The notes under the pieces: model-generated | Told to the model about the DNA's origin: nothing | The model's input: only the letters and a program-made list of their open reading frames with translations | The model's database searches: none | Program-made: the position numbers and the translations under genes | Part shown: positions 3,010 through 9,581 of the stretch, in pieces | Layout: every line of letters starts with the position of its first letter | How positions within the stretch are numbered: the stretch's first letter is position 1 | NCBI GenBank assembly: GCA_039111535.1 | Contig: JBCCIM010000025.1 | Location: 1 to 43,821, forward strand | Source of the DNA: Bacteroidota bacterium | Lineage (GTDB): Bacteria > Bacteroidota > Rhodothermia > Rhodothermales > JAHQVL01 | Direction of reading: 5' to 3' | Length of the DNA: 43,821 nucleotides

Positions 3010-5817
3010 TCAACCTTCAGCAGTCACAACGCGAATCATCTCGCGAACAGACGTTTCGCCCAACTTCACAATTTCACGTGCCGAGTCGCGCAACGTAAGC
3101 ATGCCTTCTTTTACGGCTTGCTCTTTGATGGCGCCTTCGTCGATCATTTTGTCCGCCTCAACAATCATGTGCCGGATTTCGCGGGAGAAAAAGAGCGCTT
3201 CACAAATGGCGCGACGTCCTTTGTATCCAACCCCTTTACAGGTTGGACAACTGGAATCGTTGCCTGGCTCGTAAAACGTGAGGTTGGCTACTTCTTCTCT
3301 CGTAAACCCAAGCTTTTCAAGCATAATGCCATCTGGATCCAGGTCGGGCTGCTTACAGGTTGGGCAGAGCTTTCTGATCAGTCGCTGGGCAACAATCAGG
3401 TTGATCGCGTAAGCGATCAGGAAGGGTTCGATACCCATTTTGTAGAGTCGGCTGATCGCGCTCGGGGCATCGTTGGTATGGAGCGTGGAGAAGGTAAGGT
3501 GACCCGTATTGGCAAGCTTGATAGCAAGCTCAGCCGTTTTCTTGTCACGCATCTCACCCACCATAACAATGTCGGGGTCATGACGCAGGATAGCGCGCAG
3601 TGCGTTTTCGAGCTCCAGCTTGAAATTCAGCTTAATCTGCCTCACGCCTGGGATGATATACTCCACAGGATCCTCAACCGTGAGCACATTCACTTCACCA
3701 TTGATTACGTGGTGCAGCGCAGCTACAAGCGAGGTACTTTTACCCGAACCGGTTGGACCTGTAAGAATGACCATACCATGCGGCTGCGAGATTGCAGACT
3801 CAAACGTCTCCATCGCGCTATCAAGCAAACCGAGTTTGCGCAAATCACGGATTACTTTACGGTCATCGAGTACACGAATTACAATACTTTCAGAGCGAAT
3901 TTCCTGGCTGGCATTGGCAATCGGCAATACCGACACACGAAAACGGATGAGTACGTCATCAATCCAACGCTGGATGTAACCATCCTGTGCGGCATCCCGC
4001 TCGAAGCGGTCGACGTTCATTGCGTTGTCTTTGATAACGGCTAGCAATGCTTCCGGGTGCACTTTGTGCTCGGTATGCCAGAGCGAAAGCCGGCCGTCGA
4101 TACGGAAGTGAATTTCTACACGCTTCTTGGCATTCGGATAAATATGAACGTCCGATGCGCCCTGACGCACAGATTCAACGAGCGTTGCCTCAAAGAGGTT
4201 AATGAGCGACGAGCGACTAATTTCAGCCTCAAGCGCATCTTCGTCGATGATCTCGGTGCCTTCTTCGTAGGTCATGCCAAGATCAAACGCCATGGGATCT
4301 TCCAGAACGCGCTCCATGAACTCGTTCTTACGCGGGAAGGCCTCAACAATCACAGCTTCCACTGCAGATTTCGGCGCATAATACAGGTCAAAGCGATCCA
4401 GCTTCAACTCTTTCATGACCTTACGAACTTCGGTGCGCATTGGGTCATGGGTAATGAAGACGAGCTTAACGGTACCCGACTGCTCTGTTTCGCATTCAAA
4501 CGGTACCAGATGCAGGTTTAAGAGGCGATCTCGATTTTCCTCGGAAAGCGTCTCCATCACAGAACGCACAAACTTGGCATCCAGCTTATCTTTGGTATCT
4601 GCGATTGGGAATGCGTAGATACGCGCAGCTTCTTCAAAGACTGCATCGCTGTCAACAGACTCCATCGCAACGAGAATACGCCACAGCGTTTCTCTGGAGC
4701 TCTCACGCTCCTTAACCTTTTGCGCTTCGTAGACCTGCGTAGCTGTCACAATCTGCTTTTTGAGCAGAATGCCGACAACGCGGTCTTTTGTACGAAGGGC
4801 TTCAATATCAATTGATCGAGGCTGGGCTTCCAGTTCCTCCGTCTGACGCTTGGCTGGCAATTGCGAGCCGGGTGCTGGCGGCTGCGGAGGGATTGCCGCG
4901 GGGCCACCAAAATGTGGCGGCACTTGCTCGTCAGGCACAATTTGTTCAGGCTGCTGCGGGCCACGTGGCTCCTGGACAACTTCGTCAAAGAAAGCACTGG
5001 CAAGATCATCAATACCGCCGCCGTCTTGGGGGCTGGCATCCTGTACACCGATATTTCCAAAGCCGTCGCCCATAATGGCATCAGCATCAAGGGGAATACC
5101 AGCGTCAGGTTTCTGACCGGGACGCGGCACAAGTTCTATGTCTTCTGGGCCAAGTCCATTGCCGGCAGGCCCAGGCGTCTGATGTACATCAGCCCGATAA
5201 TCATTTACTTCTTGAGAATGTGTATATCCTTTAGCACTTGCAGTGTCTTGAGGCGCGGGCTGGTCATCGTCAGAAATGAAATCTACCAACCAATCCAGCC
5301 GTGGACCGCGATCATCCTCATCATCAAACTCAAATCCATCAGCCATCTGGTCTTCCAGACGCTGCGCAGGAGAAGCAGGCGGCGGCGGTGTTGGCGGCGC
5401 AGCCTGGTTGCCTTTTGCTTTGCGCGCAGCAATGGCACGACGTACAGATTCTAGATCGTTGTCAGCACCACCAGCCGGCGCATTGTCTGCATCTTTACCA
5501 AAGAGTGCAGTAATTTCATCACGTGCGGCAACATCCCAGTCAATTGAAGACATTTTTTTGGATGCGCGGCGTTGTGCAACAGCACGGCGTGTACCTTCAA
5601 GGTCTTTGCCGTTCTGGTTATCCTTTTTAGACCGACTAAAAATTGAGGCCATCTCCTCTTTCGCCTTTGCATCCCATCCACCAGCAGGTTGCTTTGGTGC
5701 AGGTTGATTTGCGGCCGGCTTAGGGGGCACACCATTCCCATGACGCATCTCATCCTGGTGAGATCGCCTTGCTTGCTGATCCTTTTTCTTATTTCCGCCT
5801 TTCCGTTTAAACAACAT
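3010..5817 (-). CDS. pilB: PilB/GspE-type assembly ATPase with long disordered N-terminus
   Basis: This is the extension ATPase that powers filament assembly at the inner membrane with the PilC platform. The 935-residue chain is much longer than usual (about 560-600). Residues 1-340 are low-complexity, rich in Pro, Gly, Asp and Gln, and carry two related copies of a motif starting WDAKAKEEMASIF (about 48-85) and WDVAARDEITALF (about 94-134). A GspE/MshE N-terminal domain covers about 340-500. The ATPase core has Walker A GPTGSGKS at 687-694, Asp box VEDPVEY at 714-720, Walker B DPDIVMVGEMRD at 747-758 and the His box STLHT at 777-781. Two CPTC pairs (818/821 and 857/860) form the usual zinc site. 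All catalytic motifs are intact. It follows the PilC gene by 42 bases and starts with a clean ATG. Confidence 0.95.
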   Translation of the reverse strand: MLFKRKGGNKKKDQQARRSHQDEMRHGNGVPPKPAANQPAPKQPAGGWDAKAKEEMASIFSRSKKDNQNGKDLEGTRRAVAQRRASKKMSSIDWDVAARDEITALFGKDADNAPAGGADNDLESVRRAIAARKAKGNQAAPPTPPPPASPAQRLEDQMADGFEFDDEDDRGPRLDWLVDFISDDDQPAPQDTASAKGYTHSQEVNDYRADVHQTPGPAGNGLGPEDIELVPRPGQKPDAGIPLDADAIMGDGFGNIGVQDASPQDGGGIDDLASAFFDEVVQEPRGPQQPEQIVPDEQVPPHFGGPAAIPPQPPAPGSQLPAKRQTEELEAQPRSIDIEALRTKDRVVGILLKKQIVTATQVYEAQKVKERESSRETLWRILVAMESVDSDAVFEEAARIYAFPIADTKDKLDAKFVRSVMETLSEENRDRLLNLHLVPFECETEQSGTVKLVFITHDPMRTEVRKVMKELKLDRFDLYYAPKSAVEAVIVEAFPRKNEFMERVLEDPMAFDLGMTYEEGTEIIDEDALEAEISRSSLINLFEATLVESVRQGASDVHIYPNAKKRVEIHFRIDGRLSLWHTEHKVHPEALLAVIKDNAMNVDRFERDAAQDGYIQRWIDDVLIRFRVSVLPIANASQEIRSESIVIRVLDDRKVIRDLRKLGLLDSAMETFESAISQPHGMVILTGPTGSGKSTSLVAALHHVINGEVNVLTVEDPVEYIIPGVRQIKLNFKLELENALRAILRHDPDIVMVGEMRDKKTAELAIKLANTGHLTFSTLHTNDAPSAISRLYKMGIEPFLIAYAINLIVAQRLIRKLCPTCKQPDLDPDGIMLEKLGFTREEVANLTFYEPGNDSSCPTCKGVGYKGRRAICEALFFSREIRHMIVEADKMIDEGAIKEQAVKEGMLTLRDSAREIVKLGETSVREMIRVVTAEG

Positions 5818-5859: not shown

Positions 5860-7221
5860 CTAGCCGCCAATACCCATAATATCCTGGGTATTTGGCTGAA
5901 TGAGCGCAATCTCAGAAGAGATTATTGTAAGGAAACAGATGGCTATTGTGATTAGTACGGCAACCATGGTTTGAATACCTTCCACAGCTGTTCTCAACTT
6001 GAGCGTAGTTTCTTTTTCGTAATAATCAGCCATTTGCTGCGAGCTTTTACGGACATTACCCGTCTCAGAGCCACTTCTAAATCGAGCAATAGCCATAGGC
6101 GTAAACACACCACTGGCCTCCATGGCTCTTACAAGCTCAGCACCCTGTGCCACCATCATAGGCACAGTTATGGTCTTTATACGATGTTCCAGATAAGCGT
6201 TCCCGCTTGCTTCAGCGGCAACCTTGATCACACTGATATTTTCACCGCTACCAGAGTACAAGATAGCAAATGTGCGACAAAAAATCTCAATGTTCAATTT
6301 GTGCAAAAGTGACCCAATTACGGGAATCTGGATCATGTATCTATGCAAAATGAACTTACCCTTCGTCGTTTTTGCAAAGACAAAAAAACCACCGACCAGT
6401 AAAAAGGTGAGGGTAAAGACCCAGCCGTAGTTGTGGTCAAACCAGTCAGCAAACTTGAGTGTTGCTGTGGTCATTGGGGGCAGTTCGATATTGTATGAAG
6501 AGAACAGGCCAGCGGTTGCAGGGAAAATGTACCATACATACCATACAAACGCGGCAATGAGCACAAGCACGGTAATCGCCGGCGTAATCATAGCGCTGCG
6601 AACGCTTTTATTGAACTCTTGCTGTCGTTCAAGAAATCGGGCTGTTGATTCGTAAATATCAGCCATGTTACCGCTTCGTGATGCAATGCCAAGCATATAC
6701 GCGGTAAACTTGCCCAGCATGTGCTGGTGCTTCATAAACGCTTGCTGGGCTTCCATCCCGCCTTTAAGGTCGGCATTCAAGTCACGAATAACCTGCTTGA
6801 GGCTTTTGGACGAAACGTCCCCCACAAGCAGATTAAGAATTTCGTCAAACGGCAGATGTTCACGAAGGAGGTTGGCAGACAACCGCACAAACATAATAAC
6901 ATCCTGTCGTGGCGGCTTAATTTGGAAATCGAGTAATTTTTTCTCTACCCGAATAACCTCAAGGCCCATTTTGGTAAGCGCCTTGACAATTTCTTCCTGA
7001 GAAAAAGCTTTTTGCTCACCACTGGCAACTTCGCCATTCGGATGCCGAACTTTGTATAGAAAGGCTTGGCGTTTCTGGATACTCTGCGGGCGAAAATGAT
7101 GCTTTTCAGAAAGGCTGGTTACTTTCTTTTCAGCTGCGCGCTTGGAGGGAGCAAAAATAGTCCCTTGCACTGGCTGCCCTGCTGCGCTGATTCCATTGAA
7201 TTTAAATTCTTTGACAGCCAT
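5860..7221 (-). CDS. pilC: PilC/GspF-type inner-membrane platform protein
   Basis: This polytopic protein is the membrane platform on which the PilB and PilT ATPases act. Two T2SSF domains are visible: one around residues 110-235, ending in a membrane segment (AITVLVLIAAFVWYVWYIF), and one around 310-435, ending in MVAVLITIAICFLTIISS. A further membrane segment (WVFTLTFLLVGGFFVF) lies between them. At 453 residues it is longer than the usual 400 or so. The extra length is at the N-terminus, where the short motif normally present once (F/Y-K-x-x-x-x-x-G-x-x-x-x-G) appears twice, at about residues 6-20 and 55-68. It lies 141 bases after the second pilin and 42 bases before the ATPase, all on one strand, so it is probably co-transcribed with them. 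Confidence 0.92.
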   Translation of the reverse strand: MAVKEFKFNGISAAGQPVQGTIFAPSKRAAEKKVTSLSEKHHFRPQSIQKRQAFLYKVRHPNGEVASGEQKAFSQEEIVKALTKMGLEVIRVEKKLLDFQIKPPRQDVIMFVRLSANLLREHLPFDEILNLLVGDVSSKSLKQVIRDLNADLKGGMEAQQAFMKHQHMLGKFTAYMLGIASRSGNMADIYESTARFLERQQEFNKSVRSAMITPAITVLVLIAAFVWYVWYIFPATAGLFSSYNIELPPMTTATLKFADWFDHNYGWVFTLTFLLVGGFFVFAKTTKGKFILHRYMIQIPVIGSLLHKLNIEIFCRTFAILYSGSGENISVIKVAAEASGNAYLEHRIKTITVPMMVAQGAELVRAMEASGVFTPMAIARFRSGSETGNVRKSSQQMADYYEKETTLKLRTAVEGIQTMVAVLITIAICFLTIISSEIALIQPNTQDIMGIGG

Positions 7222-7362: not shown

Positions 7363-7773
7363 TTAATCCAGGGTAATTCCCCCGTTGTAGTCAATATCTG
7401 TATCGACAATTTCTTCGCCGGCTACACTTACCCGCACGCCAACATCCGGAAAGCGTTTACTGACAGCAATGATGACGAGAGAATCAGAAGTGGCCGTAAT
7501 AATTTTAAACTCTCCCCCTTCTGTCTGATCGCCTATAAAGAGGCGGTCAAACCCTCCTTCGGTCAATCCAGCGTAGCTGGCATTACCGCCTTCAAAAGGA
7601 TCTGTTTTCGCTTTCCAGAATACGGCTTCTTGGGCAATGCTTAAACATCTGTTAATGAGGGCATCAGCATCATGCTGCTTAAAGCTAATCTCAGACGCCG
7701 CATATCCGGCAAGGATAGCTACGCCAACAATGACAATCCCCATTACAAGCAATAATAGCTGCTGCTGCCCCAT
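7363..7773 (-). CDS. Short pilin-like protein 2, MGQQQ type
   Basis: This is a 136-residue protein with an N-terminal hydrophobic helix starting MGQQQLLLLVMGIVIVG, followed by a soluble domain. It is read as a structural subunit or pseudopilin of the filament built by the PilB/PilC genes downstream. The first 17 residues are almost identical to those of the protein at 7991-8470, although the codons differ at many third positions, so the N-terminus is under selection at protein level. The soluble parts of the two proteins share no obvious similarity. There is no usual prepilin leader: only MG precedes the helix, and no Glu is found at position +5. Hairpins and a candidate terminator lie between the two pilin genes, so this gene may be expressed less than the first. 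Confidence 0.8.
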   Translation of the reverse strand: MGQQQLLLLVMGIVIVGVAILAGYAASEISFKQHDADALINRCLSIAQEAVFWKAKTDPFEGGNASYAGLTEGGFDRLFIGDQTEGGEFKIITATSDSLVIIAVSKRFPDVGVRVSVAGEEIVDTDIDYNGGITLD

Positions 7774-7804
7774 GGTACCTTACAAATTCGCAACTTAGCA
7801 AACT

Positions 7805-7828
7805 AAGGTTGCCCTTGAGAGCAACCTT
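7805..7828 (-). promoter_or_regulatory. Third hairpin, upstream of pilin 2
   Basis: AAGGTTGC (7805-7812) pairs with GCAACCTT (7821-7828), an 8-bp perfect stem with an 8-base loop, about 32 bases before the pilin 2 start codon in the minus-strand transcript. It may shield the mRNA 5' of pilin 2 or act with the other stems in the gap. Confidence 0.45.
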
Positions 7829-7834
7829 GCGAAG

Positions 7835-7855
7835 AAAACCCCTAAAGCCGGGGGG
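7835..7855 (-). terminator. Possible weak terminator between the two pilin genes
   Basis: On the minus strand a CCCC (within a run of C) can pair with GGGG (7839-7842) around a short loop, followed at once by TTTT (7835-7838). It sits between pilin 1 and pilin 2, where partial termination would give excess pilin 1 mRNA. The stem is short. A very similar CCCC-loop-GGGG-TTTT arrangement follows the metallophosphoesterase gene at 32892-32915. Confidence 0.4.
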
Positions 7856-7885
7856 AATTATAAGGGGAAACACTAGCGCATATAG

Positions 7886-7940
7886 ATGAGCATTGGTGTT
7901 GCTGAGAGAAGCCATGTTGTCTCACAACACCAATACTCAT
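7886..7940 (-). promoter_or_regulatory. Long RNA hairpin after the first pilin gene
   Basis: Bases 7886-7901 and 7925-7940 form a 16-bp stem. The single mismatch on the plus strand (C with A) becomes a G-U pair in the minus-strand RNA, so the stem is complete in the pilin transcript. A further 5 bp (7903-7907 with 7920-7924) close the inner part after a one-base bulge, leaving a 12-base loop. It lies 50 bases downstream of the pilin 1 stop and has no T-tract, so an mRNA-stabilising or processing role fits better than termination. Confidence 0.65.
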
Positions 7941-7957
7941 CATTATGCAATATGGAA

Positions 7958-7979
7958 TGGCTTCAAAAAATCGAAGCCA
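7958..7979 (-). promoter_or_regulatory. Second small hairpin just after the pilin 1 stop
   Basis: TGGCTTC (7958-7964) pairs with GAAGCCA (7973-7979) around an 8-base loop. The hairpin starts 11 bases past the stop codon of the pilin 1 gene and precedes the longer stem at 7886-7940 in the transcript. Confidence 0.45.
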
Positions 7980-7990
7980 AACGCTACTCC

Positions 7991-8470
7991 TTACGGAGTT
8001 GTACAGCCAGCAGGCGCCGTTGCCGGGTTGATGGCTGTAGTAATGTTTTCAACCAAGACGCCGGCAACCGTCACACAAATGAGGTTGTTGTCACCAGCAC
8101 CACTCGTAGCAGCGCTACCAGCAGAAATAACAAGGTTGTTGCCATTTACTGAAATAGCATACTCACCGTTTACATCGGCATAGTTACCATCGCCGTTCAG
8201 CGGGTATCCCAATCCTTCAAGCGTAATCTCTGTAGAAAGACCGTTAAAGTTAGTCCGACGGTCACCATTCGTGTCTAGGCTTGCTCCACCAAACTGGACT
8301 GGTTTACGCAAAAATGCCTGCGCGTCTGACGCAATACGCATAGCTGTCATTACCATTGCGTCTGCATTTGCTTTTTTCTGGTTCTCACTAAACGCCTGAA
8401 TACCAACGACAACCGCCAAACCGACGATTACGATACCCAGTACGAGAAGTAGGAGTTGTTGCTGACCCAT
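7991..8470 (-). CDS. Pilin-like protein 1, MGQQQ type, likely major subunit
   Basis: This is the first gene of the filament locus. The 159-residue product starts MGQQQLLLLVLGIVIVG, continues as a helix into a polar stretch (SENQKKANADAM), then has a Gly/Asn/Thr-rich domain with two cysteines near the C-terminus (ICVTVAG and AGCTTP) that could form the disulphide loop typical of pilins. Position at the head of the operon, small size and the strong stem-loops just after its stop suggest it is the major subunit. The leader is at most two residues and Glu+5 is absent, unlike type IVa, IVb, Flp or T2SS major pilins. A GGAG lies about 11 bases before the ATG and a TATAAT about 30 bases before it. 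Pilin-like identity is inferred from shape and neighbours. Confidence 0.82.
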   Translation of the reverse strand: MGQQQLLLLVLGIVIVGLAVVVGIQAFSENQKKANADAMVMTAMRIASDAQAFLRKPVQFGGASLDTNGDRRTNFNGLSTEITLEGLGYPLNGDGNYADVNGEYAISVNGNNLVISAGSAATSGAGDNNLICVTVAGVLVENITTAINPATAPAGCTTP

Positions 8471-9254: not shown

Positions 9255-9581
9255 ATGTCTGCTACCAACACATCCGAAAGTTCATTCGAACACATGAAAG
9301 TCAAAGGCAACCAACTCAAGGAAAAAATCAGGGAAATTATTGAAGAAGGCACTGCGCGGCGTGTCATCATACAAAAAGATGGACGAACCTTGCTTGAATT
9401 CCCGCTTGCCATCGGCCTCGGTGGCGCTGCAGCTGCTATTTTGCTCCATGCACCACTTACGGCAGTTGGTGCCATCGCAGCACTTGTTACTGATGTTCAG
9501 ATCATCATCGAACGCGATACAGTTACGGCTGAATCTGCAGATGAAACAACTGAATCATCAGACAACGAAGAGGAAGACTAA
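9255..9581 (+). CDS. DUF4342 domain protein
   Basis: The 108-residue protein matches the DUF4342 layout: an N-terminal helix with KGNQLKEKIREIIEEG, a short strand pair (ARRVIIQKDGRTLLEFPL), a Gly/Ala-rich hydrophobic segment (about 54-80) and a last strand with VQIIIERD. An acidic tail (ESADETTESSDNEEED) follows. The family is small, widespread and of unknown function; the hydrophobic segment may be a membrane-associated hairpin. The gene stands alone on the plus strand after the long non-coding stretch and is followed by the convergent HTTM gene. Confidence 0.8.
   Translation: MSATNTSESSFEHMKVKGNQLKEKIREIIEEGTARRVIIQKDGRTLLEFPLAIGLGGAAAAILLHAPLTAVGAIAALVTDVQIIIERDTVTAESADETTESSDNEEED

Follow-up and report, generated by a model that had tools for sequence, protein, structure and literature searches.

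A putative type IV filament with leaderless subunits, encoded beside PilC, PilB and PilT in Rhodothermales and related lineages

The window analysed here, 43,821 nucleotides long, is an entire contig (C25) of a 97.6% complete, 6.6-Mb draft genome of a Rhodothermales bacterium. Its minus strand encodes, in the 5' to 3' direction, MGQQQ protein 1, MGQQQ protein 2 (both named after their first residues), PilC, PilB, proteins of 176 and 199 aa, and PilT (Table 1). These genes probably specify a type IV filament that can be retracted and is built from subunits synthesised almost in mature form, with no leader cleaved by PilD; the filament, its N-terminus, its export and its function are inferred. 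This reading rests on leaderless frames, gene neighbourhood and the lack of a detectable peptidase, all read from the sequence, and on pilin and GspI-like folds which are predicted only. The machinery is homologous to that of the type IV pilus and, on this reading, works like it; however, the requirements for a class III leader and a prepilin peptidase are not met, and for this reason the system is placed as a variant of the type IV filament, without assignment to any named class.

Table 1. Features of the window, with positions numbered along the whole stretch.
Feature	Position	Strand	Basis
MGQQQ protein 1, leaderless, 159 aa, probable major pilin	7991-8470	minus	start analysis, AlphaFold2 model, VIA-align
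MGQQQ protein 2, 136 aa, same family, second, probably minor pilin	7363-7773	minus	start analysis, profile search
Two strong stem-loops between both pilin genes	7840-7990	minus	z -7.3 vs shuffles
PilC/GspF inner-membrane platform	5860-7221	minus	Pfam T2SSF 4e-28
PilB extension ATPase, 935 aa, N-terminal extension	3010-5817	minus	Pfam T2SSE 2e-99; tree
176-aa leaderless minor pilin-like protein (MPQTVLAFL...), predicted GspI-like fold	2407-2937	minus	profile family, model
199-aa leaderless minor pilin-like protein (MFLIFDNL...), GspJ-like by position only	1784-2383	minus	profile family
PilT-family retraction ATPase, at contig end	92-1396	minus	TIGR01420 4e-93, slightly under curated cut-off

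The preliminary description of this DNA had pointed to two tandem genes alike at the N-terminus, located just upstream of PilC, PilB and, further on, PilT. The genes lie at the positions given there, and both observations hold: 16 of the first 17 residues are identical (position 11 is L or M) while synonymous codons differ, and the machinery was identified with Pfam and NCBIfam. A PilB/GspE-type ATPase and a PilC/GspF platform in the same locus are expected of the type IV filament superfamily, and a PilT retraction ATPase of type IVa pili; both criteria are met. The outer-membrane secretin, also a type IVa criterion, is present on a contig other than the window. It is the only secretin (PF00263) of the genome, maps to C41, and is preceded by a pair of proteins whose positions resemble those of PilM/N and PilO but which have no accepted Pfam match (L094:11299-14104). 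For the PilM/N/O alignment complex, a further type IVa criterion, the candidates are the conserved proteins found ahead of secretins, with sizes of 510-590 aa and ~290 aa and only sub-threshold Pfam matches; a secretin is linked to the MGQQQ operon in locus L074, and in other loci by size and position. The rest of the genome contains a further, solitary PilB-like ATPase (C1), two additional PilT-like ATPases (C185 and C44; three PilT-family members in all) and four extra MGQQQ-family genes (on C4, C14 and C162, plus the variant MAQHQ on C69).

One of the stem-loops located between the two pilin genes contains a nearly perfect 22-bp inverted repeat; they could possibly act as an mRNA stabiliser or a partial terminator, which may favour the upstream, probably major, pilin. 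The PilB of the window has a long Pro/Ala-rich N-terminal extension and totals 935 aa; outside Rhodothermales, most relatives have ~595 aa. The profile family of the 199-aa protein is conserved between PilB and PilT.

Type IV prepilins are cut by PilD after a Gly, and major pilins have Glu at position +5. A leader of MG only and a missing Glu+5 had been proposed for the two tandem proteins; the lack of any longer leader and of Glu+5 was confirmed. The nearest in-frame stops are 8 codons (protein 1) and 3 codons (protein 2) upstream, with no ATG, GTG or TTG between, so that a longer leader is impossible for either protein. Among 252 distinct MGQQQ genes the median upstream open stretch was 4 codons, and an earlier start codon was absent in 237, being possible in only 15. 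A wrongly chosen start with a normal leader upstream, which would have refuted the proposal, is excluded by the in-frame stops, which both genes and most relatives have. Relatives were also sought with a profile that omitted residues 1-5, which recovered 62 family members from 22 genomes, nearly all of them starting with MGQQQ; the off-pattern members that were readable are leaderless as well (MGHQQ, MSQSQ, MAQHQ and one MGQQQ). The minor families encoded between PilB and PilT begin directly at the hydrophobic helix (MNTGQ... and MPQT...; M..LDIIG...; MGK.ALL...), and translation of both the MGQQQ and the minor pilin-like proteins starts within a few residues of the transmembrane helix. Searches of the window's genome detected neither an N_methyl prepilin motif (PF07963) nor a class III prepilin. 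Given the upstream stops and the lack of PF07963, the class III signal peptide expected of type IV filaments is not met.

The initial MG could still act as a leader of two residues, removed after Gly by a peptidase that has escaped recognition, with a dedicated maturation step being kept. Gly is the canonical -1 residue in prepilins, Gly2 is nearly invariant in the family, and the G-Q pair recurs in many GspI-like relatives (MNTGQ, MGTGQ, MHTGQ). However, there are family members without Gly at this place (MSQSQ, MAQHQ) and minor subunits without it (MPQT in the window; MAQS and MSQT elsewhere), the operon has no recurrent peptidase gene, and the A24 prepilin peptidase is missing from most carriers, so that we regard this explanation as improbable. 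If the subunits are instead made near-mature, as we favour, methionine aminopeptidase would probably remove only Met1, leaving GQQQ.... This enzyme prefers small second residues, and removal of Met1 is plausible because residue 2 is Gly, or Ser or Ala in the variants; some minor subunits (MN..., MP...) fit such processing less well.

In 207 of 207 proteins the first 24 residues include no acidic residue and are without net charge. Glu5 is therefore missing, and no shift of register brings it back; the type IVa major pilin criterion of Glu at mature position 5 is not met by these proteins, and docking would have to proceed without the salt bridge from Glu5 to the N-terminus. Polar contacts of Gln3-5 may replace it. 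The subunits are inferred to lie in the membrane with a cytoplasmic N-terminus and an external head; without a positive leader this N-in topology is not obvious by the positive-inside rule. PilC and PilB would then add subunits and PilT would remove them, while the GspI-like protein and its neighbours could form a tip complex.

A genome search for a prepilin peptidase had been suggested as a check, and no A24 peptidase was found in the window's genome, either with Pfam PF01478 or with a profile built from same-phylum peptidases. Absence of PilD refers here to profile searches, mostly of draft genomes. The sample comprised 394 phylum genomes with 126 true MGQQQ carriers (127 by pattern, one of them a known chance match). 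A24 was found in 15 of the 126 carriers vs 36 of the 268 genomes without MGQQQ, at about equal rates (p 0.75), and this criterion of the type IV filament superfamily is not met in the window's own genome and in 111 of the 126 carriers. Among named carriers, 36/50 have no A24, including the finished chromosomes CP053447, CP070637 and CP070707, and none was detected in the finished genome of Salinibacter ruber DSM 13855. PF07963 motifs were present in 15/15 carriers with A24 and in 2/111 without (p 1e-17). These p-values assume independent genomes, which related species are not.

Twelve A24 loci from MGQQQ carriers were read, none of them from Calditrichota, KSB1 or Zixibacteria, the groups in which A24 is commoner. 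Canonical prepilin motifs (GFTLVE, GFSLTELL and similar) were found in 11 of the 12, most of which adjoin a divergent PilB (37-42% identity to that of the window) or PilC (18-25%), and an MGQQQ gene was absent from all 12. Since these loci hold canonical prepilins and no MGQQQ gene, the peptidase, judged by gene content, most likely serves a separate, T2SS-like system. These T2SS-like clusters may correspond to the divergent, Cytophaga-type T2SS of Bacteroidetes described by Denise et al. (PMC6668835), an inference on our part; that system shares some lineages with the MGQQQ system, as well as PilB, PilC and secretin homologues, whereas the A24-locus clusters differ from the MGQQQ system in that they encode an A24 peptidase of their own together with GFTLVE/GFSLTELL prepilins. 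Clusters of this T2SS-like kind, which stand beside the MGQQQ system as a second one in some of the same species, lie in L232, L233, L234, L236, L237, L238 and L242 and combine canonical GFSLTEL prepilins with A24 and secretin-like genes.

Dependence of the MGQQQ proteins on a PilD from another system in the cell would have a parallel in MSHA pili, whose loci also have no prepilin peptidase gene and are thought to borrow one (PMC6668835), and the 15 carriers with A24 could accommodate it. In contrast, MSHA species always carry a peptidase of another system (PMC6668835), while most MGQQQ species carry none: 111 carriers, finished genomes among them, were without any A24, and there is no leader to cut. 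Borrowing was rejected for most carriers given the absence of A24, and we give it hardly any credence as an explanation.

The preliminary description had also called for an HMM search against pilin classes, in which membership of a known class with a defined peptidase would have counted as refutation; no such class was found. Pfam and NCBIfam returned no accepted family for the MGQQQ proteins. Weak matches to the type IV minor pilin ComP were obtained for 8 members, and known families such as Oxidored_q2, holin_LLH, MacB_PCD and others were discarded, their matches being below the cut-off or inconsistent.

The AlphaFold2 model of protein 1, computed from an alignment of 98 sequences (mean pLDDT 91, pTM 0.82), shows a 54-residue N-terminal helix (2-55) and four strands at 102-147. 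With VIA-align the top 20 rows were all type IV pilins or pseudopilins, with Z from 7.6 to 4.9, including Neisseria PilV and PilX, Pseudomonas PAK and K122-4, Dichelobacter FimA and XcpG; the first non-pilin fold appeared at Z 4.4. Values of 5-8 are moderate and can come from a common arrangement, and Foldseek alone gave nothing significant for protein 1 (best E 0.73), with unrelated folds beside pilins. The claim of a pilin fold therefore rests on the consistent VIA-align ranking together with the predicted architecture. The model of the 176-aa protein was of lower quality (pLDDT 77), and its first four structural matches (Z 8.8-8.1) were GspI-type pseudopilins (EpsI, XcpV/XcpW) and a Thermus type IV-like pilin, so that a resemblance to the minor pseudopilin GspI is predicted. 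The type IV pilin fold, a long N-terminal helix on a beta-sheet, is thus met in predicted models of two subunits, with moderate Z. The family profile gave four matches to PDB sequences with E no higher than 1; each is a type IV pilin, but none is significant (E 0.13 and worse); these alignments place Gly17 on the conserved Gly14 of mature pilins, with about three residues preceding the canonical mature N-terminus. Cysteine counts were even in 39 proteins and odd in 35 (Poisson expectation 21 and 73), which fits exported proteins with disulfides but is only suggestive.

The lack of an accepted Pfam or NCBIfam pilin match would be expected if these were small membrane proteins unrelated to pilins, located beside pil genes by chance. 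This seems very improbable in view of the fold matches, the weak ComP matches and an operon conserved across several phyla.

The MGQQQLL codon pattern matched 127 of the 394 phylum genomes vs a handful of matches for the backwards control, indicating that MGQQQ is not due to chance. About a third of the sampled phylum genomes carry MGQQQ genes, as a rule accompanied by PilC/PilB/PilT of their own, and such genes are also present in related phyla (Calditrichota, KSB1, Marinimicrobia). Scanning the GTDB genome set for the pattern gave at least 119 loci, at least 96 of them with a complete, real MGQQQ gene; the carriers among the matches listed belong to Rhodothermales, Balneolales, Ignavibacteria, Melioribacter, Kryptonia, KSB1, Calditrichota, Marinimicrobia, Zixibacteria and one Cloacimonadota. 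Matches in Shewanella, Lachnospiraceae and similar were short chance ORFs. Also dropped as chance were the pattern matches of L002 and L023, where the protein is an unrelated one of 370 aa, those of L007 and L035, and some 15 short ORFs.

A genomic-context search for PilB together with MGQQQ proteins had been recommended, and the association proved to be kept across several phyla. A PilC homologue was present within at most 8 kb of sequence in 64 of 96 MGQQQ loci, among the matches listed. The operon MGQQQ-PilC-PilB-(minor)-PilT is kept across Rhodothermia, Ignavibacteria and Marinimicrobia, and the order MGQQQ-PilC-PilB is also present in KSB1. In the PilB tree, the proteins from MGQQQ loci and the second PilB of the window's genome form one group (SH-aLRT 80), separate from the ATPases of A24 loci and of E. 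coli (97); the grouping is moderately supported, and the exact rooting is uncertain owing to the long E. coli branches.

The locus has features in common with the pseudopili of T2SS (GspG-K, GspE, GspF), namely the predicted GspI-like minor subunit and, between PilB and PilT, two more subunits without a leader, reminiscent of a tip complex, and it differs from them in having PilT and in the absence of GspO/PilD and class III leaders. The GspI-like subunit and the single secretin of the genome would also suit a short pseudopilus confined to the periplasm and driving protein secretion, with no surface pilus. We consider this unlikely, though still possible: most of the loci read have a conserved PilT-family ATPase beside the pilins, the window's genome has three such ATPases, and to our knowledge T2SS normally have no PilT. 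Moreover, some of the same species have a separate T2SS-like cluster with canonical prepilins. With type IVa pili (PilA, PilB, PilC, PilT, PilQ) the MGQQQ system shares the pilin-type fold, extension and retraction ATPases, platform and secretin; in contrast, it has no class III signal peptide, Glu+5, or PilD and N-methylation, and its GQQQ N-terminus is very conserved.

It had been inferred initially that processing and subunit docking must differ, or that there is no cleavage, and that a separate class of type IV filament was possible. Both inferences gain support from the predicted fold, the missing A24 and N_methyl motifs, and the conserved, widespread operon. On balance, we lean towards a distinct class spanning Rhodothermia, Ignavibacteria, Calditrichota, KSB1 and Marinimicrobia, with no leader, peptidase or Glu5 docking, in which maturation would involve methionine aminopeptidase only and docking the Gln triad, and which would be either ancestral or widely spread. 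According to Denise et al. 2019 (PMC6668835) and a 2023 review (PMC10191384), the prepilin peptidase belongs to the ancestral core and prepilins are defined by the class III signal; the ancestral type IV filament machine had five parts, the peptidase among them (PMC10191384). No prior description of MGQQQ, leaderless or unprocessed pilins was found in the literature, with preprints and most subscription journals being outside the scope of the search. If the proposal is true, leader cleavage is dispensable for assembly, and motor and pilin fold are kept in a widespread system that offers a natural test of the roles of the leader, N-methylation and Glu5. It would also account for 'incomplete' pili in genome surveys of these lineages, as in Melioribacter roseus, where an MGQQQ pair is located directly upstream of pilC-pilB-pilT and no A24 was found in the genome.

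Plasmid pSR35 of S. ruber DSM 13855 carries a similar MGQQQ gene pair between recombinase fragments (L067/L280, 9991-11018), annotated as 'hypothetical protein', suggesting that pilin variants spread in a mobile or cassette-like manner. Two genomes have a gene for a DUF4342 protein close to their MGQQQ genes (window, 9255-9581; L071:8641-9012), possibly as mere synteny. In L078:8316-10463 four tandem MGQQQ genes stand ahead of PilC, three of them nearly identical over the N-terminal half, a possible case of amplification or antigenic variation.
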